DNA from: Struthio camelus
Taxonomy: Eukaryota; Chordata; Aves; Struthioniformes; Struthionidae
Direction: 5' to 3'
Length of the DNA stretch: 64,000 nt
Assembly: GCF_040807025.1 (NCBI RefSeq)
Contig: NC_090953.1
Span: forward strand, 26,458,997-26,522,996
The first letter of the stretch is position 1; every line of letters starts with the position of its first letter. Shown in pieces: positions 1-53,077 of the stretch. The position numbers and the translations under genes are program-made. The notes under the pieces are model-generated. The model did no database searches, was not told the origin of the DNA, and saw only the letters and a list, made by a program, of their open reading frames with translations.

Positions 1-1647
1 GCCGGCCCAACAGTCCCAGCTCTCCCAGCCTCTGCTCGCAGCACAGGCGCTCCAGCCCCTTCATCATCTTTGTGGCCCTTTGCTGGGCTTGCTGCAGAAG
101 GGCCGCGTCTTTCTTGCCCTGGGGAGCCCAGAGCTGGACGCAGCCCTCCGGATGCGCTCTCGCCAGCGCCGTGCAGAGGGCAGTCATCAACGCCCTCGAC
201 CTGGGGGCTCTTTGGGATGCAGCTAAAGGATGACGCTGGCCGCCTGGCTGCGAAGGAACGTTGCTGGCTCATGTTCAACTCGCTCTCCCCCGCCGCCGCC
301 CCCCGGACCCTTCGCTCCTTCTCTGCAAAGCTGCTTTCCAGGCGGTCGGCCCCGAACACACACTGGTGCATGGGGTTATGAACGTTGAGGTCCCTGCGGG
401 TGGCAGTACACCCTCGCGGTGTATCAGCCACCCCTCCCAGTTGCGTATGAGCTGCAAAGCTGCTGAGGGTGCACGGGGGTGCCTTCATTAATGAAGAGGT
501 CATTAATGAAGAGGCTGGACAGCACAGCACCCAGAATCGAGCCCCTGGGGGACGCCAGTGGTGGCTGGCCTCCAGCCGGTCTTTGTGCGGCTGATCACAG
601 CCCTCGTGATGAACAGCATCTGCTGCTCTCCCCTCACCCACCAACTCCGCCATCTCATCGTAGAAGGCCCGTGCACTCGTGCATGTCCAGTTTGTTTAAA
701 TATTCCCCAACCTGATCCTCCTCCACCGAGGGCAAGTCTGCCTCAGCCTGCACTGCCCCCTGGTTTCAGGGCGCGGGCATGCCTGACGTGCGGTCGTCCT
801 GGCAAAGCCCAAGGCAAAGACGGCCTTCAGTGCCTTGGCCTTTTCTTTGTCCTTTGGCACCAGCTCCCCATTCCCAGTCAGCAGAGGGCCCACATTTTCT
901 CTGCTCTGTCTTTTGCCGCTGAGGTACCCGTAGAAACACCTCTTGTTGCCCTTCACGTCCCTCGTCAGATTAAGCCCCAGGTGGCCTTTGGCCTTCCTAA
1001 CCCCATCCCTGCCTGCTTGGACAGTGTCTCTGTATTCTTCCCAGGGCACATGTCCCTGCCTCCACCTCCCGTACGCTTCCTTGGAACGTCTGAGTTGGGC
1101 CAGGAGCTCCTTATGCCTCCACGCAGGCCTCCTGCCGCCTTAGCTTGTTGGGATGGACCATTCTGGAGCTTGGAGGAGGTGATCCCTGAAACTCAGCCAT
1201 CCCTCCTGGACCCGCTCCTCTCTCCAGGATGGTGTGCCAGGGGATTCTCCCGAGCAGAGCCCGGAAGAGGCCACAGTCTGCTCTTCTGAAGTCCAGGGCT
1301 GTGCTCGTGGTTCGGGGCTTTTCTTCCTCCCGTCCGGAGCCCGAACTCCATCTGCTGATCACTGTGCCGGGGTTGCTCCCAGCCTTCCCGGTCCCGACCA
1401 CTTAGATCTTCCTTGTGTGCAAGCATGAGGTCCAGCAGAGCGCCTGCCCTCGTCAGCGCCTCCCGTCACCTGTGTCAGGAACTTGTCGTCAAGGCCCTCC
1501 AGAAGCCTCCTGGGTTGCCCGTCTTGGACAGGGAGCTTTCTGTGATGAAAGCCCACAGCACAGGCGTTTCTGCAAGGTGAATGCAGGATCTCCTCCTGAC
1601 AGCGAAGGCAGTTAAAGCAGTCCATGGGTGGCCCCTACTTGCTTGGC
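1..1647 (-). mobile_element. CR1 LINE ORF2 relic (cut by window edge)
   Basis: Minus-strand translations give degraded CR1 ORF2 in pieces across several frames. From high to low coordinates they are the end of the endonuclease region and linker (1111-1625, e.g. LDFRRADCGLFRALLG), the segment between endonuclease and reverse transcriptase (696-1049, WEEYRDTVQAGRDG), reverse-transcriptase pieces (about 260-660, TQLGGVADTPRG) and the C-terminal domain (1-240, QRATKMMKGLER). Frameshifts and stops make it non-functional. CR1 is the dominant LINE of bird genomes. Confidence 0.9.
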
Positions 1648-2264
1648 CAGCCTCTGAGAGGAGAAGCAGAGCAGCCTGATGCTCCCCGGCGGAGGCATCG
1701 GAAGCAGCTGTGACGCCAAGCACAGCACTTCTCCCCGCACCCGACCTCCAGTCCGCTTCCTTTGTCCCCCACTGCCCCGTGAGCGCAAGCGCTCCAGAAG
1801 GCAGCCCCCAGGAGTGACGGCGCTCCCTCCCTCTGCGCTCTGGAAGTGGAGCTGTGAGTCCAGATCTCAGTGGGAGCTCAAGCTTCTGCCTCACGGGCGG
1901 CTTTCTTTGGCGCCCTTGCGTTTTCACACCCCTTTTTTGACCACCCTCACAGTAAAGCAGTCGTCTGCTGTGTGTTCAAGCGGGATTTGCGGGATTTCAG
2001 CTTGTGCCTACTACTGCTTGGCCTCTCGTGGGGCACCAGTGAGAAGCAGCTGGCTCTTTCTTCTTTACTCCCCTGCCCCTGCCCCTGCCCCCTCCACCGC
2101 CTCAGGGATGGACACGTATCGATAAGGTCCCCCCGAGCCTGCTCTTCTCCAAGCTAAACCCTGCCTCCTCAGCTCCCGGCTGACCGGCAGAGCGCGGTAA
2201 GCGCAGGACAGAGGGGAGCGCTTTTCCACGCAGAGCGGGCGGCTAACGGAGGCTGGAGGAGAAA
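1648..2264. other. Spacer between CR1 relic and keratin 3' end
   Basis: About 620 bp with no recognisable gene. It contains a short CCCCTG hexamer run at about 2069-2090 (three copies here, four in units 5-8) and CT-rich stretches. The part from about 2180 is related to 62138-62196 and 63348-63402 in the right flank, so it belongs to the old keratin-gene downstream region. The same stretch recurs in every unit. Confidence 0.6.
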
Positions 2265-2310
2265 GAAACACCACCACAAGTCTCCAGCTATGCTGCACCA
2301 CGTCTTTAAT
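2265..2310 (-). terminator. Poly(A) signal and downstream element, K1
   Basis: On the minus strand ATTAAA lies at 2310-2305, about 305 nt after the K1 stop codon. It is followed 25 nt later by a GT-rich stretch (TTGTGGTGGTGTTTC, within 2280-2265), which is the usual arrangement around a cleavage site, so the transcript should end near 2285-2295. Confidence 0.75.
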
Positions 2311-2615
2311 GAGAAGGAAGGAAAAAAGGCAGTGAAGCAGTACAGAGACCAAGACACCCGTTTGCAGGGTTCAAGAGGAGAGTCAGCCAAGCGGAAGAGC
2401 AGGAGCTCTTTCTCAAGGAGCTCCGAGTAAAGCAGAGCCAGAGGCAGCGTGGCAAGCCCGGCCATGCAGCGAGAAGCAGCTGGCACCGTTCCCTCGCCCC
2501 CGGGGGGCCGGGCGTACCCAGCTCATCTGCAAGCCATGGCCATGCTTGCAGCCTCGGCTCCCCATTTCCTTCCAGGTTCCTGGCTGGTGGCTCCGAAGGG
2601 GATGATCCGCTGGCT

Positions 2616-2933
2616 TCAGCAGTTTAGACTGCAGCGGGGGGGAGGCAGACACAGTCCGACGCCCCCCAGATCGAGGGAGCCCCCCGATGCGATGGGCACC
2701 CCGCCAGCGCTGAGGGAGCTCCCAACAGCAGCTGACAGAGAGGATCCCACGGCTGTGCTCTGAGGGAAGGAGGTGAGAATGGGGCCAGGCAGGGTCACCA
2801 CGACCGGGGAGGCCTGGATGGCAACCGTCGAGTCAGCGCAGCGGGCGACGCACGGCTCGCTGCAGCTGCTTGCCAGTGGGGTTGGGCCAGAGGTGCCGCA
2901 GGGGCGTGGCAGGCAGGGTCTGAAGCAAGACAT
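2616..2933 (-). CDS. Feather beta-keratin K1 (corneous beta-protein)
   Basis: This encodes a 105-residue feather-type beta-keratin, the filament-forming protein that packs into the dead cells of barbs and barbules. The N-terminus begins MSCF and holds Cys3, 7, 12, 24, 28 and 32. The beta-sheet core covers about residues 34-67 with the family hallmarks [12 protein letters not shown] and SFPQ. A Ser/Gly/Val segment follows, and the tail carries Cys95, 101 and 105. Tyr, Trp and the GGX repeats of scale and claw keratins are absent. It is several residues longer than typical feather keratins (about 97-98), from extra residues around 8-16 and in the tail. The ATG at 2933 is chosen because it begins MSC and lies 21 nt after a good acceptor (TGTTTCAG, ending at 2955). 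An intron (2955-3763) links to a non-coding exon 1. The protein family is certain; feather versus feather-like subclass is inferred. Confidence 0.95.
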
Positions 2934-2954
2934 CTCTCTGTGAGGCAGGCAAAG

Positions 2955-3763
2955 CTGAAACACAGGGCAGGGGAGGGAAAACAGGGCAGAAGTTGGAGGA
3001 GCCCGGACAGCGCAGAGCGCACGGCAACTGCCCAGCCCCTGCGTTTGGAGCACAACCGGTTTAGCAAAGCCAGCCCCATGCTCGAAGGAGAACCCACAAG
3101 GAGCTGCAGGCATGGTTTGGGCAAGCCCGCAATGCCTTCCCCTTCCCCTTGCTCCCCCCTCACCTCCCCCCTCCCCCGCCCCCCGCCACGCAGGCCTTGC
3201 CCTGGCGCTGTCCTGTTAGAAACGGCCGAGCTGGAAGAGCTCTGCTCCCTCTTCTCACGCCTGCCCTCCTCACTGAGAGCGGGCCGAGGCTGCTGAGGCC
3301 TCCCTTCACCCCTGCTTTCAGAGTGACCTCAGGAGGCATGGTCGCGTGTCCTCCGAGCGACACAGCACGGGGCTGCTGACCAGCTTCCCCCATGAAATCC
3401 ATCAGAGTGCACTTAAAGCACCTGTGGAAACCGGTGGGTCATGCCACATCTCCAGAACGAACGCTTCCGCGTTCAAGATGGCAGAGGCTGCCCTTGGCTG
3501 TTTGCTTAGCGACGACCTGCTGCAGGTGGAAATTCTGGGCTACTCGCGTGCACGCAGCTGAACCCAGAGCTCCCCCTTCTGCTCTGAAAGAGCCCTCCTC
3601 TTCCCAGCGCTCCATCACCCAGCGCTCTTGCAAAGAGAAAGAGGCAGAGCTCCTGAAACGTTTCTTCCCAAGGGCCAAGCTCATCAGCCACGTTATCCAA
3701 GCTGAGTAGCCACCGTGACGGCAATTGGGCCCGTTGGAAGAGAGCGCGCGCACCCAGGCTTAC
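2955..3763 (-). other. 5' UTR intron of K1
   Basis: On the minus strand the donor is CTAG|GTAAGC (exon ends at 3764) and the acceptor is CCCTCCCCTGCCCTGTTTCAG-like, with AG at 2956-2955. A single intron in the 5' UTR just before the coding exon is the standard structure of feather-keratin genes. A G-rich run on the transcribed strand (C-rich on plus, 3136-3187) varies between units. The base at 2971, inside the pyrimidine tract, is G on plus here and in K8 but C in K2-K7. Confidence 0.85.
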
Positions 3764-3832
3764 CTAGTTCCCCAAGGAAAGTGAGGCAAAGAGAGGAGGA
3801 TGGCAGAGCCTGGCGCAGCACAGGCTTTTATG
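3764..3832 (-). promoter_or_regulatory. TATA core promoter and non-coding exon 1 of K1
   Basis: CATAAAAG on the minus strand at 3832-3825 is a TATA box. About 30 nt downstream is an initiator-like CCATCC with A at 3801, the probable transcription start. Exon 1 then runs to the donor at 3764 (38 nt, no ATG). Joined to the 21 nt before the start codon, the 5' UTR is about 59 nt, as in known feather-keratin genes. Confidence 0.8.
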
Positions 3833-5204
3833 CTGTGTCCCAGAGCCCCAGGGGACCCAAAACATTCCTTGCGCGTGAAGCACCTGGACGCATGGTTGTT
3901 GCTGCTGCTTGCAGAGGTCTCGCTGGTGACTAAGGCCTGGCCTCTCTCACCTGAAATGTTTTGCTCCCCCGTCATACGAGTTGACGTTGAGATGACTAGT
4001 CTGTGTCCCAGCCACCGCTCGGGGCTCCTAGGGCCCGCCAACTCGGAGGTCTCAGGCTAGCTGTCCGTAGGGGTTTTAAGTGGCTTTGCGTCATGCCGAT
4101 GGCCTTTGGCTCATCCCCCTCTTTGTGGTGAGCACGGCCATCAGGCATGGCGAAAGTCAGCCGTGAAGGACACCTCAAGTCAGCTCTCGAGTGCTTTTGG
4201 TGGAGGGACTCAGGCTGACCCTGAGAGACATCCCTCCCCGCAGGTGACGCATGGCAGACGCTGAGGAGATGGTGGGCTAAGTTCAGGGAGGGAGGACGTG
4301 AAGACTGCACAGGCCCGTGAGGGAGAGGAGACTCAAGCCTCCAGGCTCGTGGCAAAGCCCAACAGCAAGGAAGGAGCCTTGCGAGCTGCAGGGAAGCGCC
4401 CTTGGGGCAGCAGTGAGGGCCGTGATGATGTTGCTGGAGCTGGTCAGGCTGCGCCACAGCCTCTTTCTGCTGCCTTGGAGCGTGGGCACGAAGGCAGGTT
4501 CATGACGAGGAAGACAAAGCCAGAGAGCGGGGCAGTCCCCTCCAGGGCGGAAAGGGCAAGCGGTGGCTCTCGGGGAGCGCCAGAGCCCTGTGCTTTGGGG
4601 ACTTGCCTGGGCCTTCGTGCTCCTTCCAGCCGGGGGTCTGGGCTCTGCTCGGGCAGTGGAGAAGCTCGTGGAAACAAGCAGCTCAAGGTGTAGGAGGGAG
4701 ATCAAAGAGGCTCCTGCGTCCTTCCCTGGAAGGAAAGCGGCCCCCACCCAAATGGCCCCGTTTTGCCCAGCAAGTTCGTCCCGGAGGCCAAAAGCCTGCA
4801 CGGCCTGCTTTTTAGGAGTGGCTCGGAGCAGCGAGCCACAAGCTCACGGCCGTTTCTCCTGGGTCAGGGATGGCGTGGCCCGTTCAAGGCATTTTCATTC
4901 CAGAGCAACGCTGGATGAGGCTCCCGGAGCAGGTGGGAGCGAGCCTTCGTACTGTGGGAGAGTTGGGAAAATCCCTGAACTCCAGGGAAACGTGAGTCAC
5001 CCTGCTGTTGGCTTCAGGGAGGACGGTGTCCTGGCCTCGGCCGTGCCCGGGATACCGAGCTCACGTCCTCATTCTTCCTGAAGTGCCGCTTTCCTGAAGG
5101 GCATTTCCAAGCGGTTTGCATTACTGCTGAAACCACTGGTGCCTCGGTGCAGTCTCGTGCTCCTGCCTTCCAGCCTTTTTGTGGCTGGGCAAGGGCCCGG
5201 GTGA
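3833..5204. other. Keratin upstream spacer
   Basis: About 1.2 kb up to the unit edge at 5051, and a further 150 bp in the next unit before CR1 resumes. No conserved protein, RNA gene or transposon was recognised, and open frames on both strands look like chance frames of GC-rich DNA. As the sequence directly upstream of the promoter it is the likeliest place for gene-specific enhancers. About 60 bp of it (4172-4236) has a diverged relative at 61858-61918. Confidence 0.5.
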
Positions 5205-6300
5205 CTCAGCGCGTTGCAAAACAGTCACGGTGGGAAGGAACCTCTAAAGGTCCTCAGGGCCGACCTCCTGCTCCAAGCAGGCCGAACTTCCCAGCTACAT
5301 CGGGAGGCTCGGAGTCGGAACACCGACACACACACACACACGGAGATGCCGGCGTCCCTCGCGCAGCCTGTTCCAGGGCGGCACCGTACTCTCTGAGACT
5401 TGTGTTTCCATTGCAGCAGCTGGGTTTTCCCTTCCCCTCCTGCCCCCTCGGCCTCTCCTCCTGCGGCACGTGCTTCAGCCCCAGCCGACTCGGTCTGGCC
5501 CTGGGCCTGGAGCTCTCTCCAGGTTTTTGGCATGTCTCTCTCTGGTCCGGGGGGACCCAAACTGGGCACTGCAGTTCCGGAGTTGCCCCAGCAGTGAGGA
5601 GGGAAGAGCGTGGCTCGCTTTGCTCAGCTTGCGTTGAACCGTTTGAGTTGGAAGGGGCCTCTGGAAGTGAGCTGGTCCCACCCCTTGCTCGAAGCAGGGG
5701 CGCCTAGGTCGGCTGGCTCACGGACGTGTCTAGGCAAGTTCTTGCCTCTCTCCAAGAACGGCAAGCCAACAACCCCGCTCTTCCAAAGCCTGGCCATCCC
5801 CATGCTGCAACAGAGTCTCAAGCTTAATCTATGTTCTATCTAGGGGGATGTCACCGTGTTACAACTTGTGTCCTTTGCTCCTTGTCCTATCGCTGTGACA
5901 TCCTTCAGAAGGAGTCTGGCTCCTCCTTCTCTTTCTGCTCCCACGGGGCAACCGCAGAGAGCAATAAGATCTCCCCGAGCCTTCTCTTCCTAGGGCTGCA
6001 TGCAACGAGGTCTCCCAGCCTCTCCTCCTATGTCCCATGCATCAGACCCCAATCACCCTGCTGACCCTGTCCGCCTCGCCGGCACTCGCTCCACAAGGGC
6101 AAGGTCTTCCCAGGCCGCGAGATTCAAGACTGGACGCCCTGTTGCGCACGCAGCCTCCCAAGCGCCAAGGAGAGGGGGAGGATCCCTGCCCTCGCCCTGC
6201 TGGCTGCACTCTTGCCAACCAGGACGTGGCTGTCCGTCCTCGCAGCCAGGGCGCGCTGCTGACCCAGGGCTGGCTTCTTGTCCTCCTGCACGCCCAACCG
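5205..6300 (-). mobile_element. Two adjacent CR1 fragments, minus strand
   Basis: The first (about 5205-5630) begins with a CR1 3' end (GGAAGGAACCTCTAAAGGTC on plus, the complement of the CR1 tail) and passes into the C-terminal ORF2 region. A short CA run (5327-5342) interrupts it. The second (about 5630-6300) starts with another 3' tail (GTTGGAAGGGGCCTCTGGAA) and continues back into ORF2. Both are heavily diverged. Each 3'-tail restart marks a separate insertion event. Confidence 0.75.
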
Positions 6301-6321
6301 CCCTGCCCACCCCTCCCCCCT

Positions 6322-6349
6322 ACCACCACCACCCCCACCACCACCACCC
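6322..6349. repeat. CCA/ACC triplet tract
   Basis: An imperfect (ACC)n microsatellite broken by one C run. It appears at the same place in every unit (13175, 20028, 26889, 33759, 40629 and 47488 onward) with no length change visible. Confidence 0.8.
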
Positions 6350-6419
6350 GAGATGCTTTGAAGCACGCTGCTCTCTCGCCAGTCAGCCTCCAGCCTGCCC
6401 GGTGTTATTGCAGGCCAGG

Positions 6420-8500
6420 GCAGGACGAGCCTTTGCCGTTGTTGAACTGCAGGCACCTCCTGTCAGCCCCTTTCTCCAGCCCGGGCAGTTTCCCCTGAAC
6501 ACCAGCCCGGGCCCCCAGTGCGTCAGCTGCCTGCCCCCTGACTGGCCTCTTGCAAAAGTGTGCTGAAAGCACCCTGTTGCACCGTTCACGTTGCTCAGGA
6601 CACTGTCCAGTCAGGTTTTGAAGGTCTCCAGGGATGGAGACTCCGCAACCGCTGTGGGCAGCGTGTCCCAGTGCTTGGCCAGCCTCACCACTCACAAGTT
6701 TTCTCTTATGTTCGGATGAAATGTTCTGGGTCTCGGTTTGTGCCTGTTGCCCCTGGTCTGTTCACCGCATAACACTGAAAAGAATCTGGCGCCATCTTTG
6801 CTACAGCCTGCCACCGGTGTTCGTGCACCCTGACAAGATCCCCCGAGCCTTCTGCCGGCCCAACAGTCCCAGCTCTCCCAGCCTCTGCTCGCAGCACAGG
6901 CGCTCCAGCCCCTTCATCATCTTTGTGGCCCTTTGCTGGGCTTGCTGCAGAAGGGCCGCGTCTTTCTTGCCCTGGGGAGCCCAGAGCTGGACGCAGCCCT
7001 CCGGATGCGCTCTCGCCAGCGCCGTGCAGAGGGCAGTCATCAACGCCCTCGACCTGGGGGCTCTTTGGGATGCAGCTAAAGGATGACGCTGGCCGCCTGG
7101 CTGCGAAGGAACGTTGCTGGCTCATGTTCAACTCGCTCTCCCCCGCCGCCGCCCCCCGGACCCTTCGCTCCTTCTCTGCAAAGCTGCTTTCCAGGCGGTC
7201 GGCCCCGAACACACACTGGTGCATGGGGTTATGAACGTTGAGGTCCCTGCGGGTGGCAGTACACCCTCGCGGTGTATCAGCCACCCCTCCCAGTTGCGTA
7301 TGAGCTGCAAAGCTGCTGAGGGTGCACGGGGGTGCCTTCATTAATGAAGAGGTCATTAATGAAGAGGCTGGACAGCACAGCACCCAGAATCGAGCCCCTG
7401 GGGGACGCCAGTGGTGGCTGGCCTCCAGCCGGTCTTTGTGCGGCTGATCACAGCCCTCGTGATGAACAGCATCTGCTGCTCTCCCCTCACCCACCAACTC
7501 CGCCATCTCATCGTAGAAGGCCCGTGCACTCGTGCATGTCCAGTTTGTTTAAATATTCCCCAACCTGATCCTCCTCCACCGAGGGCAAGTCTGCCTCAGC
7601 CTGCACTGCCCCCTGGTTTCAGGGCGCGGGCATGCCTGACGTGCGGTCGTCCTGGCAAAGCCCAAGGCAAAGACGGCCTTCAGTGCCTTGGCCTTTTCTT
7701 TGTCCTTTGGCACCAGCTCCCCATTCCCAGTCAGCAGAGGGCCCACATTTTCTCTGCTCTGTCTTTTGCCGCTGAGGTACCCGTAGAAACACCTCTTGTT
7801 GCCCTTCACGTCCCTCGTCAGATTAAGCCCCAGGTGGCCTTTGGCCTTCCTAACCCCATCCCTGCCTGCTTGGACAGTGTCTCTGTATTCTTCCCAGGGC
7901 ACATGTCCCTGCCTCTACCTCCCGTACGCTTCCTTGGAACGTCTGAGTTGGGCCAGGAGCTCCTTATGCCTCCACGCAGGCCTCCTGCCGCCTTAGCTTG
8001 TTGGGATGGACCATTCTGGAGCTTGGAGGAGGTGATCCCTGAAACTCAGCCATCCCTCCTGGACCCGCTCCTCTCTCCAGGATGGTGTGCCAGGGGATTC
8101 TCCCGAGCAGAGCCCGGAAGAGGCCACAGTCTGCTCTTCTGAAGTCCAGGGCTGTGCTCGTGGTTCGGGGCTTTTCTTCCTCCCGTCCGGAGCCCGAACT
8201 CCATCTGCTGATCACTGTGCCGGGGTTGCTCCCAGCCTTCCCGGTCCCGACCACTTAGATCTTCCTTGTGTGCAAGCATGAGGTCCAGCAGAGCGCCTGC
8301 CCTCGTCAGCGCCTCCCGTCACCTGTGTCAGGAACTTGTCGTCAAGGCCCTCCAGAAGCCTCCTGGGTTGCCCGTCTTGGACAGGGAGCTTTCTGTGATG
8401 AAAGCCCACAGCACAGGCGTTTCTGCAAGGTGAATGCAGGATCTCCTCCTGACAGCGAAGGCAGTTAAAGCAGTCCATGGGTGGCCCCTACTTGCTTGGC
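6420..8500 (-). mobile_element. CR1 ORF2 relic spanning the unit, copy 2
   Basis: This is the best-preserved complete version of the relic. A short separate fragment (about 6420-6590, encoding LEKGADRRCLQFN on minus) abuts a near-complete ORF2. The ORF2 then runs, in plus-coordinate order, from the 3' end (about 6590) through the C-terminal domain, reverse transcriptase and linker to the end of the endonuclease near 8500. Stops and frameshifts are spread throughout. Confidence 0.88.
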
Positions 8501-9117
8501 CAGCCTCTGAGAGGAGAAGCAGAGCAGCCTGATGCTCCCCGGCGGAGGCATCGGAAGCAGCTGTGACGCCAAGCACAGCACTTCTCCCCGCACCCGACCT
8601 CCAGTCCGCTTCCTTTGTCCCCCACTGCCCCGTGAGCGCAAGCGCTCCAGAAGGCAGCCCCCAGGAGTGACGGCGCTCCCTCCCTCTGCGCTCTGGAAGT
8701 GGAGCTGTGAGTCCAGATCTCAGTGGGAGCTCAAGCTTCTGCCTCACGGGCGGCTTTCTTTGGCGCCCTTGCGTTTTCACACCCCTTTTTTGACCACCCT
8801 CACAGTAAAGCAGTCGTCTGCTGTGTGTTCAAGCGGGATTTGCGGGATTTCAGCTTGTGCCTACTACTGCTTGGCCTCTCGTGGGGCACCAGTGAGAAGC
8901 AGCTGGCTCTTTCTTCTTTACTCCCCTGCCCCTGCCCCTGCCCCCTCCACCGCCTCAGGGATGGACACGTATCGATAAGGTCCCCCCGAGCCTGCTCTTC
9001 TCCAAGCTAAACCCTGCCTCCTCAGCTCCCGGCTGACCGGCAGAGCGCGGTAAGCGCAGGACAGAGGGGAGCGCTTTTCCACGCAGAGCGGGCGGCTAAC
9101 GGAGGCTGGAGGAGAAA

Positions 9118-9163
9118 GAAACACCACCACAAGTCTCCAGCTATGCTGCACCACGTCTTTAAT
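9118..9163 (-). terminator. Poly(A) signal and downstream element, K2
   Basis: ATTAAA on minus at 9163-9158 with the GT-rich element ending at 9118. No change from K1. Confidence 0.75.
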
Positions 9164-9468
9164 GAGAAGGAAGGAAAAAAGGCAGTGAAGCAGTACAGAG
9201 ACCAAGACACCCGTTTGCAGGGTTCAAGAGGAGAGTCAGCCAAGCGGAAGAGCAGGAGCTCTTTCTCAAGGAGCTCCGAGTAAAGCAGAGCCAGAGGCAG
9301 CGTGGCAAGCCCGGCCATGCAGCGAGAAGCAGCTGGCACCGTTCCCTCGCCCCCGGGGGGCCGGGCGTACCCAGCTCATCTGCAAGCCATGGCCATGCTT
9401 GCAGCCTCGGCTCCCCATTTCCTTCCAGGTTCCTGGCTGGTGGCTCCGAAGGGGATGATCCGCTGGCT

Positions 9469-9786
9469 TCAGCAGTTTAGACTGCAGCGGGGGGGAGGCA
9501 GACACAGTCCGACGCCCCCCAGATCGAGGGAGCCCCCCGATGCGATGGGCACCCCGCCAGCGCTGAGGGAGCTCCCAACAGCAGCTGACAGAGAGGATCC
9601 CACGGCTGTGCTCTGAGGGAAGGAGGTGAGAATGGGGCCAGGCAGGGTCACCACGACCGGGGAGGCCTGGATGGCAACCGTCGAGTCAGCGCAGCGGGCG
9701 ACGCACGGCTCGCTGCAGCTGCTTGCCAGTGGGGTTGGGCCAGAGGTGCCGCAGGGGCGTGGCAGGCAGGGTCTGAAGCAAGACAT
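9469..9786 (-). CDS. Feather beta-keratin K2
   Basis: The 105-residue product is identical to K1, with all nine cysteines and the PGPIL/SFPQ core intact. The gene uses exon 1 at 10617-10654, an intron at 9808-10616 and a TATA box at 10678-10685. The pyrimidine tract before the acceptor has G instead of C at the minus-strand position matching 9824, a state shared with K3-K7. Nothing indicates a pseudogene. Confidence 0.95.
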
Positions 9787-10616: not shown

Positions 10617-10685
10617 CTAGTTCCCCAAGGAAAGTGAGGCAAAGAGAGGAGGATGGCAGAGCCTGGCGCAGCACAGGCTTTTATG
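10617..10685 (-). promoter_or_regulatory. TATA core promoter and exon 1 of K2
   Basis: TATA box CATAAAAG at 10685-10678, probable start near 10654, donor CTAG|GTAAGC with the exon ending at 10617. Identical to K1. Confidence 0.8.
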
Positions 10686-16321: not shown

Positions 16322-16639
16322 TCAGCAGTTTAGACTGCAGCGGGGGGGAGGCAGACACAGTCCGACGCCCCCCAGATCGAGGGAGCCCCCCGATGCGATG
16401 GGCACCCCGCCAGCGCTGAGGGAGCTCCCAACAGCAGCTGACAGAGAGGATCCCACGGCTGTGCTCTGAGGGAAGGAGGTGAGAATGGGGCCAGGCAGGG
16501 TCACCACGACCGGGGAGGCCTGGATGGCAACCGTCGAGTCAGCGCAGCGGGCGACGCACGGCTCGCTGCAGCTGCTTGCCAGTGGGGTTGGGCCAGAGGT
16601 GCCGCAGGGGCGTGGCAGGCAGGGTCTGAAGCAAGACAT
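16322..16639 (-). CDS. Feather beta-keratin K3
   Basis: Intact 105-codon frame, product identical to K1. Exon 1 lies at 17470-17507, the intron at 16661-17469 and the TATA box at 17531-17538. The intronic C-tract near 16872-16898 has the TCCCC form shared with K4, K6 and K7 rather than the GCCCCCC form of K1 and K2. Confidence 0.95.
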
Positions 16640-23185: not shown

Positions 23186-23503
23186 TCAGCAGTTTAGACT
23201 GCAGCGGGGGGGAGGCAGACACAGTCCGACGCCCCCCAGATCGAGGGAGCCCCCCGATGCGATGGGCACCCCGCCAGCGCTGAGGGAGCTCCCAACAGCA
23301 GCTGACAGAGAGGATCCCACGGCTGTGCTCTGAGGGAAGGAGGTGAGAATGGGGCCAGGCAGGGTCACCACGACCGGGGAGGCCTGGATGGCAACCGTCG
23401 AGTCAGCGCAGCGGGCGACGCACGGCTCGCTGCAGCTGCTTGCCAGTGGGGTTGGGCCAGAGGTGCCGCAGGGGCGTGGCAGGCAGGGTCTGAAGCAAGA
23501 CAT
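23186..23503 (-). CDS. Feather beta-keratin K4
   Basis: Intact frame, product identical to K1. Exon 1 lies at 24334-24371, the intron at 23525-24333 and the TATA box at 24395-24402. The gene and its intron match K3; the differences of this unit lie in the CR1 half. Confidence 0.95.
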
Positions 23504-30052: not shown

Positions 30053-30370
30053 TCAGCAGTTTAGACTGCAGCGGGGGGGAGGCAGACACAGTCCGACGCC
30101 CCCCAGATCGAGGGAGCCCCCCGATGCGATGGGCACCCCGCCAGCGCTGAGGGAGCTCCCAACAGCAGCTGACAGAGAGGATCCCACGGCTGTGCTCTGA
30201 GGGAAGGAGGTGAGAATGGGGCCAGGCAGGGTCACCACGACCGGGGAGGCCTGGATGGCAACCGTCGAGTCAGCGCAGCGGGCGACGCACGGCTCGCTGC
30301 AGCTGCTTGCCAGTGGGGTTGGGCCAGAGGTGCCGCAGGGGCGTGGCAGGCAGGGTCTGAAGCAAGACAT
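30053..30370 (-). CDS. Feather beta-keratin K5
   Basis: Intact frame, product identical to K1. Exon 1 lies at 31201-31238, the intron at 30392-31200 and the TATA box at 31262-31269. The intronic C-tract is an almost unbroken run of C on plus. A C at about 31119 in the intron is shared with K6 and K7 only. The 3' UTR has a private C-to-A near 29829. Confidence 0.95.
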
Positions 30371-36922: not shown

Positions 36923-37240
36923 TCAGCAGTTTAGACTGCAGCGGGGGGGAGGCAGACACAGTCCGACGCCCCCCAGATCGAGGGAGCCCCCCGATGCGAT
37001 GGGCACCCCGCCAGCGCTGAGGGAGCTCCCAACAGCAGCTGACAGAGAGGATCCCACGGCTGTGCTCTGAGGGAAGGAGGTGAGAATGGGGCCAGGCAGG
37101 GTCACCACGACCGGGGAGGCCTGGATGGCAACCGTCGAGTCAGCGCAGCGGGCGACGCACGGCTCGCTGCAGCTGCTTGCCAGTGGGGTTGGGCCAGAGG
37201 TGCCGCAGGGGCGTGGCAGGCAGGGTCTGAAGCAAGACAT
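36923..37240 (-). CDS. Feather beta-keratin K6
   Basis: Intact frame, product identical to K1. Exon 1 lies at 38071-38108, the intron at 37262-38070 and the TATA box at 38132-38139. The C-tract has the K3/K4/K7 form; the intronic C shared with K5 and K7 is present. Confidence 0.95.
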
Positions 37241-40607: not shown

Positions 40608-40726
40608 CCCTGCCCACCCCTCCCCCCTACCACCACCACCCCCACCACCACCACCCGAGATGCTTTGAAGCACGCTGCTCTCTCGCCAGTCAGCCTCCAG
40701 CCTGCCCGGTGTTATTGCAGGCCAGG

Positions 40727-43430: not shown

Positions 43431-43476
43431 GAAACACCACCACAAGTCTCCAGCTATGCTGCACCACGTCTTTAAT
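43431..43476 (-). terminator. Poly(A) signal and downstream element, K7
   Basis: ATTAAA on minus at 43476-43471 with the GT-rich element ending at 43431. Confidence 0.75.
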
Positions 43477-43781
43477 GAGAAGGAAGGAAAAAAGGCAGTG
43501 AAGCAGTACAGAGACCAAGACACCCGTTTGCAGGGTTCAAGAGGAGAGTCAGCCAAGCGGAAGAGCAGGAGCTCTTTCTCAAGGAGCTCCGAGTAAAGCA
43601 GAGCCAGAGGCAGCGTGGCAAGCCCGGCCATGCAGCGAGAAGCAGCTGGCACCGTTCCCTCGCCCCCGGGGGGCCGGGCGTACCCAGCTCATCTGCAAGC
43701 CATGGCCATGCTTGCAGCCTCGGCTCCCCATTTCCTTCCAGGTTCCTGGCTGGTGGCTCCGAAGGGGATGATCCGCTGGCT

Positions 43782-44099
43782 TCAGCAGTTTAGACTGCAG
43801 CGGGGGGGAGGCAGACACAGTCCGACGCCCCCCAGATCGAGGGAGCCCCCCGATGCGATGGGCACCCCGCCAGCGCTGAGGGAGCTCCCAACAGCAGCTG
43901 ACAGAGAGGATCCCACGGCTGTGCTCTGAGGGAAGGAGGTGAGAATGGGGCCAGGCAGGGTCACCACGACCGGGGAGGCCTGGATGGCAACCGTCGAGTC
44001 AGCGCAGCGGGCGACGCACGGCTCGCTGCAGCTGCTTGCCAGTGGGGTTGGGCCAGAGGTGCCGCAGGGGCGTGGCAGGCAGGGTCTGAAGCAAGACAT
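43782..44099 (-). CDS. Feather beta-keratin K7
   Basis: Intact frame, product identical to K1. Exon 1 lies at 44930-44967, the intron at 44121-44929 and the TATA box at 44991-44998. Its intron groups with K5 and K6, although the CR1 relic to its left groups with unit 8. The switch falls around this gene, somewhere between 42859 and about 44340. Confidence 0.95.
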
Positions 44100-44929
44100 C
44101 TCTCTGTGAGGCAGGCAAAGCTGAAACACAGGGCAGCGGAGGGAAAACAGGGCAGAAGTTGGAGGAGCCCGGACAGCGCAGAGCGCACGGCAACTGCCCA
44201 GCCCCTGCGTTTGGAGCACAACCGGTTTAGCAAAGCCAGCCCCATGCTCGGAGGAGAACCCACAAGGAGCTGCAGGCATGGTTTGGGCAAGCCCGCAATG
44301 CCTTCCCCTTCCCCTTGCTCCCCCCTCACCTCCCCCCTCCCCCCCTCCCCGCCACGCAGGCCTTGCCCTGGCGCTGTCCTGTTAGAAACGGCCGAGCTGG
44401 AAGAGCTCTGCTCCCTCTTCTCACGCCTGCCCTCCTCACTGAGAGCGGGCCGAGGCTGCTGAGGCCTCCCTTCACCCCTGCTTTCAGAGTGACCTCAGGA
44501 GGCATGGTCGCGTGTCCTCCGAGCGACACAGCACGGGGCTGCTGACCAGCTTCCCCCATGAAATCCATCAGAGTGCACTTAAAGCACCTGTGGAAACCGG
44601 TGGGTCATGCCACATCTCCAGAACGAACGCTTCCGCGTTCAAGATGGCAGAGGCTGCCCTTGGCTGTTTGCTTAGCGACGACCTGCTGCAGGTGGAAATT
44701 CTGGGCTACTCGCGTGCACGCAGCTGAACCCAGAGCTCCCCCTTCTGCTCTGAAAGAGCCCTCCTCTTCCCAGCGCTCCATCACCCAGCGCTCTTGCAAA
44801 GAGAAAGAGGCAGAGCTCCTGAAACGTTTCTTCCCAAGGGCCAAGCCCATCAGCCACGTTATCCAAGCTGAGTAGCCACCGTGACGGCAATTGGGCCCGT
44901 TGGAAGAGAGCGCGCGCACCCAGGCTTAC

Positions 44930-44998
44930 CTAGTTCCCCAAGGAAAGTGAGGCAAAGAGAGGAGGATGGCAGAGCCTGGCGCAGCACAGGCTTTTATG
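44930..44998 (-). promoter_or_regulatory. TATA core promoter and exon 1 of K7
   Basis: TATA box at 44998-44991, probable start near 44967, donor with the exon ending at 44930. Unchanged. Confidence 0.8.
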
Positions 44999-46370
44999 CT
45001 GTGTCCCAGAGCCCCAGGGGACCCAAAACATTCCTTGCGCGTGAAGCACCTGGACGCATGGTTGTTGCTGCTGCTTGCAGAGGTCTCGCTGGTGACTAAG
45101 GCCTGGCCTCTCTCACCTGAAATGTTTTGCTCCCCCGTCATACGAGTTGACGTTGAGATGACTAGTCTGTGTCCCAGCCACCGCTCGGGGCTCCTAGGGC
45201 CCGCCAACTCGGAGGTCTCAGGCTAGCTGTCCGTAGGGGTTTTAAGTGGCTTTGCGTCATGCCGATGGCCTTTGGCTCATCCCCCTCTTTGTGGTGAGCA
45301 CGGCCATCAGGCATGGCGAAAGTCAGCCGTGAAGGACACCTCAAGTCAGCTCTCGAGTGCTTTTGGTGGAGGGACTCAGGCTGACCCTGAGAGACATCCC
45401 TCCCCGCAGGTGACGCATGGCAGACGCTGAGGAGATGGTGGGCTAAGTTCAGGGAGGGAGGACGTGAAGACTGCACAGGCCCGTGAGGGAGAGGAGACTC
45501 AAGCCTCCAGGCTCGTGGCAAAGCCCAACAGCAAGGAAGGAGCCTTGCGAGCTGCAGGGAAGCGCCCTTGGGGCAGCAGTGAGGGCCGTGATGATGTTGC
45601 TGGAGCTGGTCAGGCTGCGCCACAGCCTCTTTCTGCTGCCTTGGAGCGTGGGCACGAAGGCAGGTTCATGACGAGGAAGACAAAGCCAGAGAGCGGGGCA
45701 GTCCCCTCCAGGGCGGAAAGGGCAAGCGGTGGCTCTCGGGGAGCGCCAGAGCCCTGTGCTTTGGGGACTTGCCTGGGCCTTCGTGCTCCTTCCAGCCGGG
45801 GGTCTGGGCTCTGCTCGGGCAGTGGAGAAGCTCGTGGAAACAAGCAGCTCAAGGTGTAGGAGGGAGATCAAAGAGGCTCCTGCGTCCTTCCCTGGAAGGA
45901 AAGCGGCCCCCACCCAAATGGCCCCGTTTTGCCCAGCAAGTTCGTCCCGGAGGCCAAAAGCCTGCACGGCCTGCTTTTTAGGAGTGGCTCGGAGCAGCGA
46001 GCCACAAGCTCACGGCCGTTTCTCCTGGGTCAGGGATGGCGTGGCCCGTTCAAGGCATTTTCATTCCAGAGCAACGCTGGATGAGGCTCCCGGAGCAGGT
46101 GGGAGCGAGCCTTCGTACCGTGGGAGAGTTGGGAAAATCCCTGAACTCCAGGGAAACGTGAGTCACCCTGCTGTTGGCTTCAGGGAGGACGGTGTCCTGG
46201 CCTCGGCCGTGCCCGGGATACCGAGCTCACGTCCTCATTCTTCCTGAAGTGCCGCTTTCCTGAAGGGCATTTCCAAGCGGTTTGCATTACTGCTGAAACC
46301 ACTGGTGCCTCGGTGCAGTCTCGTGCTCCTGCCTTCCAGCCTTTTTGTGGCTGGGCAAGGGCCCGGGTGA

Positions 46371-47466
46371 CTCAGCGCGTTGCAAAACAGTCACGGTGGG
46401 AAGGAACCTCTAAAGGTCCTCAGGGCCGACCTCCTGCTCCAAGCAGGCCGAACTTCCCAGCTACATCGGGAGGCTCGGAGTCGGAACACCGACACACACA
46501 CACACACGGAGATGCCGGCGTCCCTCGCGCAGCCTGTTCCAGGGCGGCACCGTACTCTCTGAGACTTGTGTTTCCATTGCAGCAGCTGGGTTTTCCCTTC
46601 CCCTCCTGCCCCCTCGGCCTCTCCTCCTGCGGCACGTGCTTCAGCCCCAGCCGACTCGGTCTGGCCCTGGGCCTGGAGCTCTCTCCAGGTTTTTGGCATG
46701 TCTCTCTCTGGTCCGGGGGGACCCAAACTGGGCACTGCAGTTCCGGAGTTGCCCCAGCAGTGAGGAGGGAAGAGCGTGGCTCGCTTTGCTCAGCTTGCGT
46801 TGAACCGTTTGAGTTGGAAGGGGCCTCTGGAAGTGAGCTGGTCCCACCCCTTGCTCGAAGCAGGGGCGCCTAGGTCGGCTGGCTCACGGACGTGTCTAGG
46901 CAAGTTCTTGCCTCTCTCCAAGAACGGCAAGCCAACAACCCCGCTCTTCCAAAGCCTGGCCATCCCCATGCTGCAACAGAGTCTCAAGCTTAATCTATGT
47001 TCTATCTAGGGGGATGTCACCGTGTTACAACTTGTGTCCTTTGCTCCTTGTCCTATCGCTGTGACATCCTTCAGAAGGAGTCTGGCTCCTCCTTCTCTTT
47101 CTGCTCCCACGGGGCAACCGCAGAGAGCAATAAGATCTCCCCGAGCCTTCTCTTCCTAGGGCTGCATGCAACGAGGTCTCCCAGCCTCTCCTCCTATGTC
47201 CCATGCATCAGACCCCAATCACCCTGCTGACCCTGTCCGCCTCGCCGGCACTCGCTCCACAAGGGCAAGGTCTTCCCAGGCCGCGAGATTCAAGACTGGA
47301 CGCCCTGTTGCGCACGCAGCCTCCCAAGCGCCAAGGAGAGGGGGAGGATCCCTGCCCTCGCCCTGCTGGCTGCACTCTTGCCAACCAGGACGTGGCTGTC
47401 CGTCCTCGCAGCCAGGGCGCGCTGCTGACCCAGGGCTGGCTTCTTGTCCTCCTGCACGCCCAACCG
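46371..47466 (-). mobile_element. Two adjacent CR1 fragments, copy in unit 8
   Basis: Same pair of fragments, in the unit 7 form. Confidence 0.75.
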
Positions 47467-47585
47467 CCCTGCCCACCCCTCCCCCCTACCACCACCACCC
47501 CCACCACCACCACCCGAGATGCTTTGAAGCACGCTGCTCTCTCGCCAGTCAGCCTCCAGCCTGCCCGGTGTTATTGCAGGCCAGG

Positions 47586-49666
47586 GCAGGACGAGCCTTT
47601 GCCGTTGTTGAACTGCAGGCACCTCCTGTCAGCCCCTTTCTCCAGCCCGGGCAGTTTCCCCTGAACACCAGCCCGGGCCCCCAGTGCGTCAGCTGCCTGC
47701 CCCCTGACTGGCCTCTTGCAAAAGTGTGCTGAAAGCACCCTGTTGCACCGTTCACGTTGCTCAGGACACTGTCCAGTCAGGTTTTGAAGGTCTCCAGGGA
47801 TGGAGACTCCGCAACCGCTGTGGGCAGCGTGTCCCAGTGCTTGGCCAGCCTCACCACTCACAAGTTTTCTCTTATGTTCGGATGAAATGTTCTGGGTCTC
47901 GGTTTGTGCCTGTTGCCCCTGGTCTGTTCACCGCATAACACTGAAAAGAATCTGGCGCCATCTTTGCTACAGCCTGCCACCGGTGTTCGTGCACCCTGAC
48001 AAGATCCCCCGAGCCTTCTGCCGGCCCAACAGTCCCAGCTCTCCCAGCCTCTGCTCGCAGCACAGGCGCTCCAGCCCCTTCATCATCTTTGTGGCCCTTT
48101 GCTGGGCTTGCTGCAGAAGGGCCGCGTCTTTCTTGCCCTGGGGAGCCCAGAGCTGGACGCAGCCCTCCGGATGCGCTCTCGCCAGCGCCGTGCAGAGGGC
48201 AGTCATCAACGCCCTCGACCTGGGGGCTCTTTGGGATGCAGCTAAAGGATGACGCTGGCCGCCTGGCTGCGAAGGAACGTTGCTGGCTCATGTTCAACTC
48301 GCTCTCCCCCGCCGCCGCCCCCCGGACCCTTCGCTCCTCCTCTGCAAAGCTGCTTTCCAGGCGGTCGGCCCCGAACACGCACTGGTGCATGGGGTTATGA
48401 ACGTTGAGGTCCCTGCGGGTGGCAGTACACCCTCGCGGTGTATCAGCCACCCCTCCCAGTTGCGTATGAGCTGCAAAGCTGCTGAGGGTGCACGGGGGTG
48501 CCTTCATTAATGAAGAGGTCATTAATGAAGAGGCTGGACAGCACAGCACCCAGAATCGAGCCCCTGGGGGACGCCAGTGGTGGCTGGCCTCCAGCCGGTC
48601 TTTGTGCGGCTGATCACAGCCCTCGTGATGAACAGCATCTGCTGCTCTCCCCTCACCCACCAACTCCGCCATCTCATCGTAGAAGGCCCGTGCACTCGTG
48701 CATGTCCAGTTTGTTTAAATATTCCCCAACCTGATCCTCCTCCACCGAGGGCAAGTCTGCCTCAGCCTGCACTGCCCCCTGGTTTCAGGGAGCGGGCATG
48801 CCTGACGTGCGGTCGTCCTGGCAAAGCCCAAGGCAAAGACGGCCTTCAGTGCCTTGGCCTTTTCTTCGTCCTTTGGCACCAGCTCCCCATTCCCAGTCAG
48901 CAGAGGGCCCACATTTTCTCTGCTCTGTCTTTTGCCGCTGAGGTACCCGTAGAAACACCTCTTGTTGCCCTTCACGTCCCTCGTCAGATTAAGCCCCAGG
49001 TGGCCTTTGGCCTTCCTAACCCCATCCCTGCCTGCTTGGACAGTGTCTCTGTATTCTTCCCAGGGCACATGTCCCTGCCTCTACCTCCCGTACGCTTCCT
49101 TGGAACGTCTGAGTTGGGCCAGGAGCTCCTTATGCCTCCACGCAGGCCTCCTGCCGCCTTAGCTTGTTGGGATGGACCATTCTGGAGCTTGGAGGAGGTG
49201 ATCCCTGAAACTCAGCCATCCCTCCTGGACCCGCTCCTCTCTCCAGGATGGTGTGCCAGGGGATTCTCCCGAGCAGAGCCCGGAAGAGGCCACAGTCTGC
49301 TCTTCTGAAGTCCAGGGCTGTGCTCGTGGTTCGGGGCTTTTCTTCCTCCCGTCCGGAGCCCGAACTCCATCTGCTGATCACTGTGCCGGGGTTGCTCCCA
49401 GCCTTCCCGGTCCCGACCACTTAGATCTTCCTTGTGTGCAAGCATGAGGTCCAGCAGAGCGCCTGCCCTCGTCAGCGCCTCCCGTCACCTGTGTCAGGAA
49501 CTTGTCGTCAAGGCCCTCCAGAAGCCTCCTGGGTTGCCCGTCTTGGACAGGGAGCTTTCTGTGATGAAAGCCCACAGCACAGGCGTTTCTGCAAGGTGAA
49601 TGCAGGATCTCCTCCTGACAGCGAAGGCAGTTAAAGCAGTCCATGGGTGGCCCCTACTTGCTTGGC
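47586..49666 (-). mobile_element. CR1 ORF2 relic, copy in unit 8
   Basis: No difference from the unit 7 copy was noticed, including the changes the two share exclusively. Confidence 0.88.
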
Positions 49667-50289
49667 CAGCCTCTGAGAGGAGAAGCAGAGCAGCCTGATG
49701 CTCCCCGGCGGAGGCATTGGAAGCAGCTGTGACGCCAAGCACAGCACTTCTCCCCGCACCCGACCTCCAGTCCGCTTCCTTTGTCCCCCACTGCCCCGTG
49801 AGCGCAAGCGCTCCAGAAGGCAGCCCCCAGGAGTGACGGCGCTCCCTCCCTCTGCGCTCTGGAAGTGGAGCTGTGAGTCCAGATCTCAGTGGGAGCTCAA
49901 GCTTCTGCCTCACGGGCGGCTTTCTTTGGCGCCCTTGCGTTTTCACACCCCTTTTTTGACCACCCTCACAGTAAAGCAGTCGTCTGCTGTGTGTTCAAGC
50001 GGGATTTGCGGGATTTCAGCTTGTGCCTACTACTGCTTGGCCTCTCGTGGGGCACCAGTGAGAAGCAGCTGGCTCTTTCTTCTTTACTCCCCTGCCCCTG
50101 CCCCTGCCCCTGCCCCCTCCACCGCCTCAGGGATGGACACGTATCGATAAGGTCCCCCCGAGCCTGCTCTTCTCCAAGCTAAACCCTGCCTCCTCAGCTC
50201 CCGGCTGACCGGCAGAGCGCGGTAAGCGCAGGACAGAGGGGAGCGCTTTTCCACGCAGAGCGGGCGGCTAACGGAGGCTGGAGGAGAAA

Positions 50290-50335
50290 GAAACACCACC
50301 ACAAGTCTCCAGCTATGCTGCACCACGTCTTTAAT
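50290..50335 (-). terminator. Poly(A) signal and downstream element, K8
   Basis: ATTAAA on minus at 50335-50330 with the GT-rich element ending at 50290. Confidence 0.75.
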
Positions 50336-50640
50336 GAGAAGGAAGGAAAAAAGGCAGTGAAGCAGTACAGAGACCAAGACACCCGTTTGCAGGGTTCAAG
50401 AGGAGAGTCAGCCAAGCGGAAGAGCAGGAGCTCTTTCTCAAGGAGCTCCGAGTAAAGCAGAGCCAGAGGCAGCGTGGCAAGCCCAGCCATGCAGCGAGAA
50501 GCAGCTGGCACCGTTCCCTCGCCCCCGGGGGGCCGGGCGTACCCAGCTCATCTGCAAGCCATGGCCATGCTTGCAGCCTCGGCTCCCCATTTCCTTCCAG
50601 GTTCCTGGCTGGTGGCTCCGAAGGGGATGATCCGCTGGCT

Positions 50641-50958
50641 TCAGCAGTTTAGACTGCAGCGGGGGGGAGGCAGACACAGTCCGACGCCCCCCAGATCGAG
50701 GGAGCCCCCCGATGCGATGGGCACCCCGCCAGCGCTGAGGGAGCTCCCAACAGCAGCTGACAGAGAGGATCCCACGGCTGTGCTCTGAGGGAAGGAGGTG
50801 AGAATGGGGCCAGGCAGGGTCACCACGACCGGGGAGGCCTGGATGGCAACCGTCGAGTCAGCGCAGCGGGCGACGCACGGCTCGCTGCAGCTGCTTGCCA
50901 GTGGGGTTGGGCCAGAGGTGCCGCAGGGGCGTGGCAGGCAGGGTCTGAAGCAAGACAT
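50641..50958 (-). CDS. Feather beta-keratin K8 (last gene of the array)
   Basis: Intact frame; read base by base from about 50658 to the ATG it is identical to K1. Exon 1 lies at 51790-51827, the intron at 50980-51789 (810 nt, one longer than the others because of an extra base in the C-tract) and the TATA box at 51851-51858. It keeps about 1.2 kb of upstream spacer before the array ends at 53077, so its proximal promoter is complete, but anything farther upstream that the other copies have is replaced by foreign sequence. The pyrimidine tract has the K1 state. Confidence 0.95.
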
Positions 50959-51789
50959 CTCTCTGTGAGGCAGGCAAAGCTGAAACACAGGGCAGGGGAG
51001 GGAAAACAGGGCAGAAGTTGGAGGAGCCCGGACAGCGCAGAGCGCACGGCAACTGCCCAGCCCCTGCGTTTGGAGCACAACCGGTTTAGCAAAGCCAGCC
51101 CCATGCTCGGAGGAGAACCCACAAGGAGCTGCAGGCATGGTTTGGGCAAGCCCGCAATGCCTTCCCCTTCCCCTTGCTCCCCCCTCACCTCCCCCTTCCC
51201 CCCCCTCCCCGCCACGCAGGCCTTGCCCTGGCGCTGTCCTGTTAGAAACGGCCGAGCTGGAAGAGCTCTGCTCCCTCTTCTCACGCCTGCCCTCCTCACT
51301 GAGAGCGGGCCGAGGCTGCTGAGGCCTCCCTTCACCCCTGCTTTCAGAGTGACCTCAGGAGGCATGGTCGCGTGTCCTCCGAGCGACACAGCACGGGGCT
51401 GCTGACCAGCTTCCCCCATGAAATCCATCAGAGTGCACTTAAAGCACCTGTGGAAACCGGTGGGTCATGCCACATCTCCAGAACGAACGCTTCCGCGTTC
51501 AAGATGGCAGAGGCTGCCCTTGGCTGTTTGCTTAGCGACGACCTGCTGCAGGTGGAAATTCTGGGCTACTCGCGTGCACGCAGCTGAGCCCAGAGCTCCC
51601 CCTTCTGCTCTGAAAGAGCCCTCCTCTTCCCAGCGCTCCATCACCCAGCGCTCTTGCAAAGAGAAAGAGGCAGAGCTCCTGAAACGTTTCTTCCCAAGGG
51701 CCAAGCTCATCAGCCACGTTATCCAAGCTGAGTAGCCACCGTGACGGCAATTGGGCCCGTTGGAAGAGAGCGCGCGCACCCAGGCTTAC

Positions 51790-51858
51790 CTAGTTCCCCA
51801 AGGAAAGTGAGGCAAAGAGAGGAGGATGGCAGAGCCTGGCGCAGCACAGGCTTTTATG
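51790..51858 (-). promoter_or_regulatory. TATA core promoter and exon 1 of K8
   Basis: TATA box at 51858-51851, probable start near 51827, donor with the exon ending at 51790. Unchanged. Confidence 0.8.
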
Positions 51859-53077
51859 CTGTGTCCCAGAGCCCCAGGGGACCCAAAACATTCCTTGCGC
51901 GTGAAGCACCTGGACGCATGGTTGTTGCTGCTGCTTGCAGAGGTCTCGCTGGTGACTAAGGCCTGGCCTCTCTCACCTGAAATGTTTTGCTCCCCCGTCA
52001 TACGAGTTGACGTTGAGATGACTAGTCTGTGTCCCAGCCACCGCTCGGGGCTCCTAGGGCCCGCCAACTCGGAGGTCTCAGGCTAGCTGTCCGTAGGGGT
52101 TTTAAGTGGCTTTGCGTCATGCCGATGGCCTTTGGCTCATCCCCCTCTTTGTGGTGAGCACGGCCATCAGGCATGGCGAAAGTCAGCCGTGAAGGACACC
52201 TCAAGTCAGCTCTCGAGTGCTTTTGGTGGAGGGACTCAGGCTGACCCTGAGAGACATCCCTCCCCGCAGGTGACGCATGGCAGACGCTGAGGAGATGGTG
52301 GGCTAAGTTCAGGGAGGGAGGACGTGAAGACTGCACAGGCCCGTGAGGGAGAGGAGACTCAAGCCTCCAGGCTCGTGGCAAAGCCCAACAGCAAGGAAGG
52401 AGCCTTGCGAGCTGCAGGGAAGCGCCCTTGGGGCAGCAGTGAGGGCCGTGATGATGTTGCTGGAGCTGGTCAGGCTGCGCCACAGCCTCTTTCTGCTGCC
52501 TTGGAGCGTGGGCACGAAGGCAGGTTCATGACGAGGAAGACAAAGCCAGAGAGCGGGGCAGTCCCCTCCAGGGCGGAAAGGGCAAGCGGTGGCTCTCGGG
52601 GAGCGCCAGAGCCCTGTGCTTTGGGGACTTGCCTGGGCCTTCGTGCTCCTTCCAGCCGGGGGTCTGGGCTCTGCTCGGGCAGTGGAGAAGCTCGTGGAAA
52701 CAAGCAGCTCAAGGTGTAGGAGGGAGATCAAAGAGGCTCCTGCGTCCTTCCCTGGAAGGAAAGCGGCCCCCACCCAAATGGCCCCGTTTTGCCCAGCAAG
52801 TTCGTCCCGGAGGCCAAAAGCCTGCACGGCCTGCTTTTTAGGAGTGGCTCGGAGCAGCGAGCCACAAGCTCACGGCCGTTTCTCCTGGGTCAGGGATGGC
52901 GTGGCCCGTTCAAGGCATTTTCATTCCAGAGCAACGCTGGATGAGGCTCCCGGAGCAGGTGGGAGCGAGCCTTCGTACTGTGGGAGAGTTGGGAAAATCC
53001 CTGAACTCCAGGGAAACGTGAGTCACCCTGCTGTTGGCTTCAGGGAGGACGGTGTCCTGGCCTCGGCCGTGCCCGGG

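Follow-up and report, generated by a model that had tools for sequence, protein, structure and literature searches.

Forty tandem copies of a feather beta-keratin gene, probably of the chromosome-10 type, kept uniform by concerted evolution in the ostrich genome

Introduction

Eight predicted genes for a feather beta-keratin whose coding sequences do not differ by a single base stand side by side in a 64,000-nucleotide stretch of the genome of the ostrich, Struthio camelus (assembly GCF_040807025.1), and the question that this locus raises is how far the repetition extends, what keeps the copies alike, and whether their likeness reflects selection for a high output of the encoded protein. The whole of that stretch is referred to here as the window; it corresponds to C12:26458997-26522996, C12 being one of the 262 contigs of the window's own assembly (G000, 1.452 Gb), which was the genome searched. 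The window very probably takes in the right-hand end of a tandem array that undergoes concerted evolution, extends over 276 kb, and comprises 40 copies of a feather beta-keratin gene, probably one of the chromosome-10 type. Gene and spacer are homogenised together, and ordinary concerted evolution of whole units explains the identical proteins, which are therefore not by themselves a sign of selection and do not alone demonstrate selection for dosage.

Extent and Gene Structure of the Array

Self-comparison of the window delineates a head-to-tail array spanning bases 1-53077, the same limits as those given in the initial annotation, with eight units of approximately 6.86 kb each, the first seven measuring 6853, 6853, 6853, 6861, 6870, 6870, and 6859 bp and the eighth being partial (5058 bp). 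Every unit carries one minus-strand frame of 105 codons, which starts at the higher of the two coordinates listed for it in Table 1. The eight coding sequences (CDSs), 318 nt each, are identical to the base, just as had been claimed for eight keratin genes in units of about 6.85 kb, and the 30 substitution columns found among the eight units, along with indels, all lie outside the CDS.

The annotation had further proposed that the array continues to the left with a copy number above eight. When the window was joined to C12:26210001-26459000 and 26522901-26530000, giving a region of 320 kb, blastn located exactly 40 keratin copies in it, from C12:26240163 to 26509954, so the proposal proved correct, with the qualification that two of the 40 genes carry two amino-acid changes: the CDS is identical in 38 copies, while the adjacent copies 9 and 10 share V62M and V92I. 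None of the 40 frames has an internal stop. The whole array occupies C12:26236148-26512073 (275,926 bp). The genes are spaced at 6853-6870 bp throughout, with a single exception of 8914 bp that is due to a 2061-bp insertion in the unit concerned. There is no N within the array, the sole run of N in the 320 kb (74 bases) being located outside it, at C12:26227803-26227876.

The 105-aa product matches the Pfam family Keratin (PF02422) over residues 3-84 with an E-value of 5.2e-31 and 106.6 bits (cut-off 25), and this match, together with the paralogous keratins present elsewhere in the genome, supports its original description as an avian-type beta-keratin. A search of the PDB for solved relatives returned a single match, to an unrelated enzyme at E 0.79, and a search of viral contigs for relatives gave 42 stretches matching a pattern, none of which was confirmed. 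Each 6.86-kb unit would represent a complete-looking transcription unit, with a TATA box, a non-coding exon 1, a 0.8-kb intron, an exon 2 with the 105-aa frame, and an ATTAAA signal. The two-exon model put forward at the outset is thereby retained: in copy 1 exon 1 is predicted to end at 3764 and exon 2, holding the entire frame, to begin at 2954, and the TATA box and ATTAAA are where that model had placed them. The contexts of the TATA box, the splice donor, and the poly(A) signal recur in 40 of 40 copies. The AG core of the acceptor is likewise present in all 40, and a longer acceptor string was matched in 20 of them, a result consistent with a variable site in the pyrimidine tract, at phase 2971. 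The predicted TATA and exon-1 layout, with the CDS wholly in exon 2 and one intron in the 5' untranslated region (UTR), is common to paralogues on contigs C25 and C30, both of which have TATAAAAGCC and an exon 1 that ends in GGGAACCAG/GT (C25) or GTGAACAAG/GT (C30), the paralogue on contig C2 having CATAAAAGCC. A small number of 24-mers recurring at an offset of half a unit had hinted at a degenerate second keratin gene within the 6.86-kb unit, for which tblastn found no second CDS.

The assignment to a chromosome comes from other genes on the contig. Contig C12 (26.92 Mb) carries CLN6 (five exon matches) and an FAH-type gene (one match), both of which we take to be located on human 15q and on chicken chromosome 10, so that C12 is probably the counterpart of chicken chromosome 10.

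Homogenisation of the Units and Exchange between Copies

For the alignment, units were cut at the low end of the CDS, a unit taking the number of the gene with which it begins and ending immediately ahead of the next gene, which gave 40 units (39 complete and one partial) and 6872 columns, the 2061-bp insertion being left out. Substitutions are seen in 83 columns of the alignment, of which 38 are singletons. The mean pairwise difference amounts to 9.9 per unit (about 0.145%), with a maximum of 22, and the 39 complete units represent 36 distinct substitution haplotypes; units 24 and 25 do not differ at any substitution column, nor do units 29 and 30. If neutral change proceeds at close to 2e-9 per site and year, such a divergence would correspond, as a rough figure, to some 0.4 million years.

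The similarity between copies declines with the distance between them (Mantel r 0.36, with none of 5000 permutations as high), and among the 39 complete units the average difference is 6.3 between adjacent copies, compared with 10.1 overall. When the four-gamete test is applied to the 14 informative sites for which every one of the 40 units was scored, 19 of the 91 site pairs fail. Omitting the five sites at phase 3155-3200, a low-complexity C tract in which the same change is apt to arise repeatedly, leaves 4 failing pairs out of 36 for the 40 units, and the same omission for the 39 complete units gives 40 informative sites and 109 failing pairs out of 780. At phase 402-409 a complex block, consisting of five substitutions and an 11-bp insertion, is confined, among the 39 complete units, to units 17, 31, and 35-37 (the last three being window units 4-6). 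Its presence in units so far apart, for which recurrent mutation is a very unlikely cause, demonstrates exchange between copies in tracts shorter than a unit. The block itself may have originated from a template switch and then spread to distant units. Unequal crossing over is in turn inferred from the identical or near-identical neighbours (24/25 and 29/30).

The array thus combines near-identical units throughout with exchange between the copies, which is what defines concerted evolution, and the copies would be kept alike by exchange acting both on whole units and on tracts within them. Judging from the protein family and from the chicken chromosome-10 genes, the array would most likely provide many equivalent templates from which a single structural protein is made in feather keratinisation.

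Weighing the Alternatives

It has to be noted that several points weigh against the interpretation given above. The evidence is drawn entirely from sequence, and the copy number from one assembly; the probable orthology with chicken chromosome 10 is based on two marker genes, CLN6 and the FAH-type gene. Long-term coding constraint is visible against the paralogues, with ratios of nonsynonymous to synonymous divergence (dN/dS, NG86) of 0.31, 0.25, and 0.26 relative to a single keratin each from C25, C2, and C30, respectively, but these values are uncertain, as dS is near or above 0.9 and YN00 gave no estimates for the three pairs. Finally, conservation among the copies is not significantly higher in the CDS than elsewhere in the unit, and the array itself therefore shows no selection for dosage.

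The last point bears directly on the alternative that survives best, namely that the 40 copies stay identical because the bird needs a very high output of exactly this keratin. Frames and signals are intact in 40 of 40 copies, the long-term dN/dS of 0.25-0.31 is low, and in chicken the feather keratins of chromosome 10 show expression in keratinising feathers (PMC11099144). Among the copies, however, no additional constraint on the protein is visible: the CDS holds 2 of the 83 variable columns in the 40 units where 3.84 are expected (P = 0.26), and none of the 30 in the window alone (P = 0.24), so that extra constraint is not detectable at this sample size, and the only two coding changes in the array both alter amino acids. 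Selected dosage amplification is compatible with neutral concerted evolution and inseparable from it; it is plausible, and we hold it tentatively, a little short of an even chance.

A more specific proposal concerns how the units are homogenised, and it was prompted by the longest stretch of the unit that lacks any variable column, which extends from the start of the intron to well upstream of the TATA box (Table 1). A random scatter of 89 events reaches 797 bp in about 0.1% of 20,000 simulations (P approximately 0.001, post hoc), in a calculation that assumes equal mutability and for a stretch that was picked after looking. Recombination hotspots may be situated at transcription starts in birds, which are not known to possess PRDM9, and gene conversion might then start at the open promoter, leaving these 797 bp identical while intron and spacer vary. 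If true, the uniformity of keratin arrays would stem from the promoters of their own genes, and the regulatory region, not the protein, would be the most constant part. A low CpG content can be ruled out as the cause, the CpG share of the stretch being close to the unit average. As 48 of the 83 changes in the array are located at CpG sites, an unmethylated promoter in the germline could account for part of the invariance, and such hypomethylation is a possible partial cause. Conservation of the whole 0.8 kb over longer times is not seen: 95 bp at the TATA box and exon 1 align with the C30 paralogue, and no significant alignment within the stretch was obtained with the C25 and C2 paralogues. 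The shortness of this alignment speaks against long-term selection on the entire stretch. The invariant stretch is a lead, and conversion centred on the promoter a rather improbable explanation of it.

Less probable again is that one or a few real units were falsely multiplied by the assembler. The units do differ by just about 0.15%, with 24/25 and 29/30 alike at every substitution column, and false duplications are reported even for long-read assemblies (PMC9516828). The same paper, however, names gaps between false duplicates as characteristic, and the array is free of N runs. The 36 haplotypes in 39 complete units, the CR1-like insertion of 2061 bp confined to one unit, and the ordered similarity of neighbours likewise speak for real copies, and a false duplication of haplotypes should, in our estimation, yield about two copies and not 40. 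An assembly artefact is thus unlikely.

That the array consists of pseudogenes or of satellite-like DNA, multiplied passively and with few or none of the copies expressed, as the old unit at its right flank without CDS and proximal promoter might suggest, is highly improbable given the intact frames and signals in 40 of 40 copies and the low dN/dS.

Features of the Window and the Array Flanks

The features of the window that belong to, or border on, the array of near-identical keratin units are collected in Table 1.

Table 1. Array, gene, and flank features in the window (window coordinates; signals and exons given for copy 1)
Feature	Position	Strand	Evidence
Right-hand part of tandem array	1..53077	.	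self-comparison, blastn
Beta-keratin CDS, window copy 1 (genome copy 33/40), 105 aa + stop	2616..2933	-	frame, Pfam
Beta-keratin CDS, window copy 2, identical	9469..9786	-	frame, CDS comparison
Beta-keratin CDS, window copy 3, identical	16322..16639	-	frame, CDS comparison
Beta-keratin CDS, window copy 4, identical	23186..23503	-	frame, CDS comparison
Beta-keratin CDS, window copy 5, identical	30053..30370	-	frame, CDS comparison
Beta-keratin CDS, window copy 6, identical	36923..37240	-	frame, CDS comparison
Beta-keratin CDS, window copy 7, identical	43782..44099	-	frame, CDS comparison
Beta-keratin CDS, window copy 8, identical; last gene of array	50641..50958	-	frame, CDS comparison, blastn
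Predicted non-coding exon 1, copy 1 (5' end approximate, ~25-30 bp past TATA box)	3764..3800	-	sequence; donor in 40/40
Predicted 5' UTR intron, copy 1, 809 bp, GT...AG ends	2955..3763	-	acceptor core TGTTTCAG in 40/40 copies
TATA box CATAAAAG, copy 1	3825..3832	-	present in 40/40 copies
ATTAAA poly(A) signal, copy 1	2305..2310	-	present in 40/40 copies
Invariant stretch, 797 bp: intron start, exon 1, TATA, ~680 bp upstream of TATA	3716..4512	-	0 variable columns in 40 units
CR1-like DNA, three matching pieces, directly at right end of array	53078..53843	.	matches to 2061-bp insertion within C12:26512074-26512839
Degenerate flanking keratin unit, 3' part	63368..63799	-	86.6% over 186 bp and 78.8% over 113 bp to 3' UTR region

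The 2061-bp insertion, at C12:26424167-26426227 in one of the 40 units, shares 93% identity with a copy situated in the left flank and ends in a CTGTGATT repeat, which is typical of CR1 elements. The presence of such an insertion within a homogenised array, in a genome of 1.45 Gb, hints at fairly recent CR1 activity. The degenerate unit at the right flank extends past the window as C12:26523146-26524589, with 68.8% identity over the intron and exon 1 and 68.6% far upstream; its CDS is not recognisable, and 19 bp are present where an array unit has 633 bp of proximal promoter. Two transfer RNA (tRNA) genes are found in the 11 kb to the right of the array, tRNA-Met(CAT) at 55366-55437 (-) and tRNA-Gly(TCC) at 60299-60371 (+).

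Other Keratins in the Ostrich Genome

In the search of the genome with the keratin protein, the best 150 of 587 first-look candidates were scored, and the counts are therefore lower bounds. Outside C12, at least 66 matches are located on C2 and at least 70 on C25, in two blocks (best 150 of 411 candidates), and at least 22 on C30 (best 150 of 414 candidates). Contigs C12, C2, C25, C30, and C19 together account for at least 199 matches, the completeness of frames beyond the matches listed being established for C12 only. Among the matches listed, the best ones outside the array are C25 copies with 72-76% identity (over residues 1-94 or 1-95) and C30 copies with 70-75%, both of which presumably represent typical feather keratins. 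The protein of the C2 array is 62% identical to that of C12; the C2 genes are spaced at about 4.37 kb across most of the right-hand part, and its members are 95-100% identical to one of their number, with one match starting at residue 8.

On C30, at 4939591-4964673, successive matches are evenly spaced and for the most part switch strand from one to the next, as though two genes in inverted orientation made up the repeat unit there. On C19, at 15278400-15278850, a single keratin-like frame that resembles the C12 type shares a 13-residue stretch with the C12 protein and lacks the usual cysteine tail, and is perhaps a relict relative. On all five contigs listed, the keratins lie no more than about 1.9 Mb from an end of the contig (for example, 0.41 Mb on C12 and 1.5-1.8 Mb on C2). 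A subtelomeric position is not borne out by the contig ends examined: the last 600 bp of C12, C2, C30, and C19 contain no telomere repeat, the first 600 of C25 are N, and the genome-wide list of telomere patterns has places on contig C1 only.

Comparison with Known Feather Keratin Arrays

The closest known system would be that of chicken chromosome 10, which has six feather beta-keratins (Chr10_FK; PMC4202321) and whose genes show expression in keratinising down and juvenile feathers (PMC11099144). Both are clusters of feather beta-keratin genes, and the chromosomes that carry them seem to be homologous, as indicated by CLN6 and the FAH-type gene on C12; they differ in the number of genes, six in chicken compared with 40 near-identical copies in the ostrich.

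In PMC4202321, 47 CDSs are placed across approximately 578 kb of chicken chromosome 27, forming a long tandem feather keratin array like that of C12, albeit on another chromosome and of another subfamily; the C25 copies may be the ostrich counterpart of that array. For chicken chromosome 2, 13 feather keratins are given there, and the tandem array on C2 possibly corresponds to them; it differs from the C12 array in its protein identity, its shorter spacing, and its greater number of protein variants.

Feather keratin arrays in chicken are described as hard to assemble (PMC4202321), and a survey of 48 birds counted 33.8 complete genes on average and 149 at most, with no significant correlation of the counts with coverage or N50 (PMC4264316). 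An N-free array of 40 copies, in a genome with at least 199 keratin matches, suggests that the counts of the survey were low, even though no such correlation was seen in it. The titles and abstract openings of the literature consulted, with subscription papers mostly out of reach, contain no description of such an array on this chromosome. The array belongs to a known kind, that of the tandem feather keratin array in concerted evolution, and is a functional-looking representative of it with five times as many copies as the window contains.

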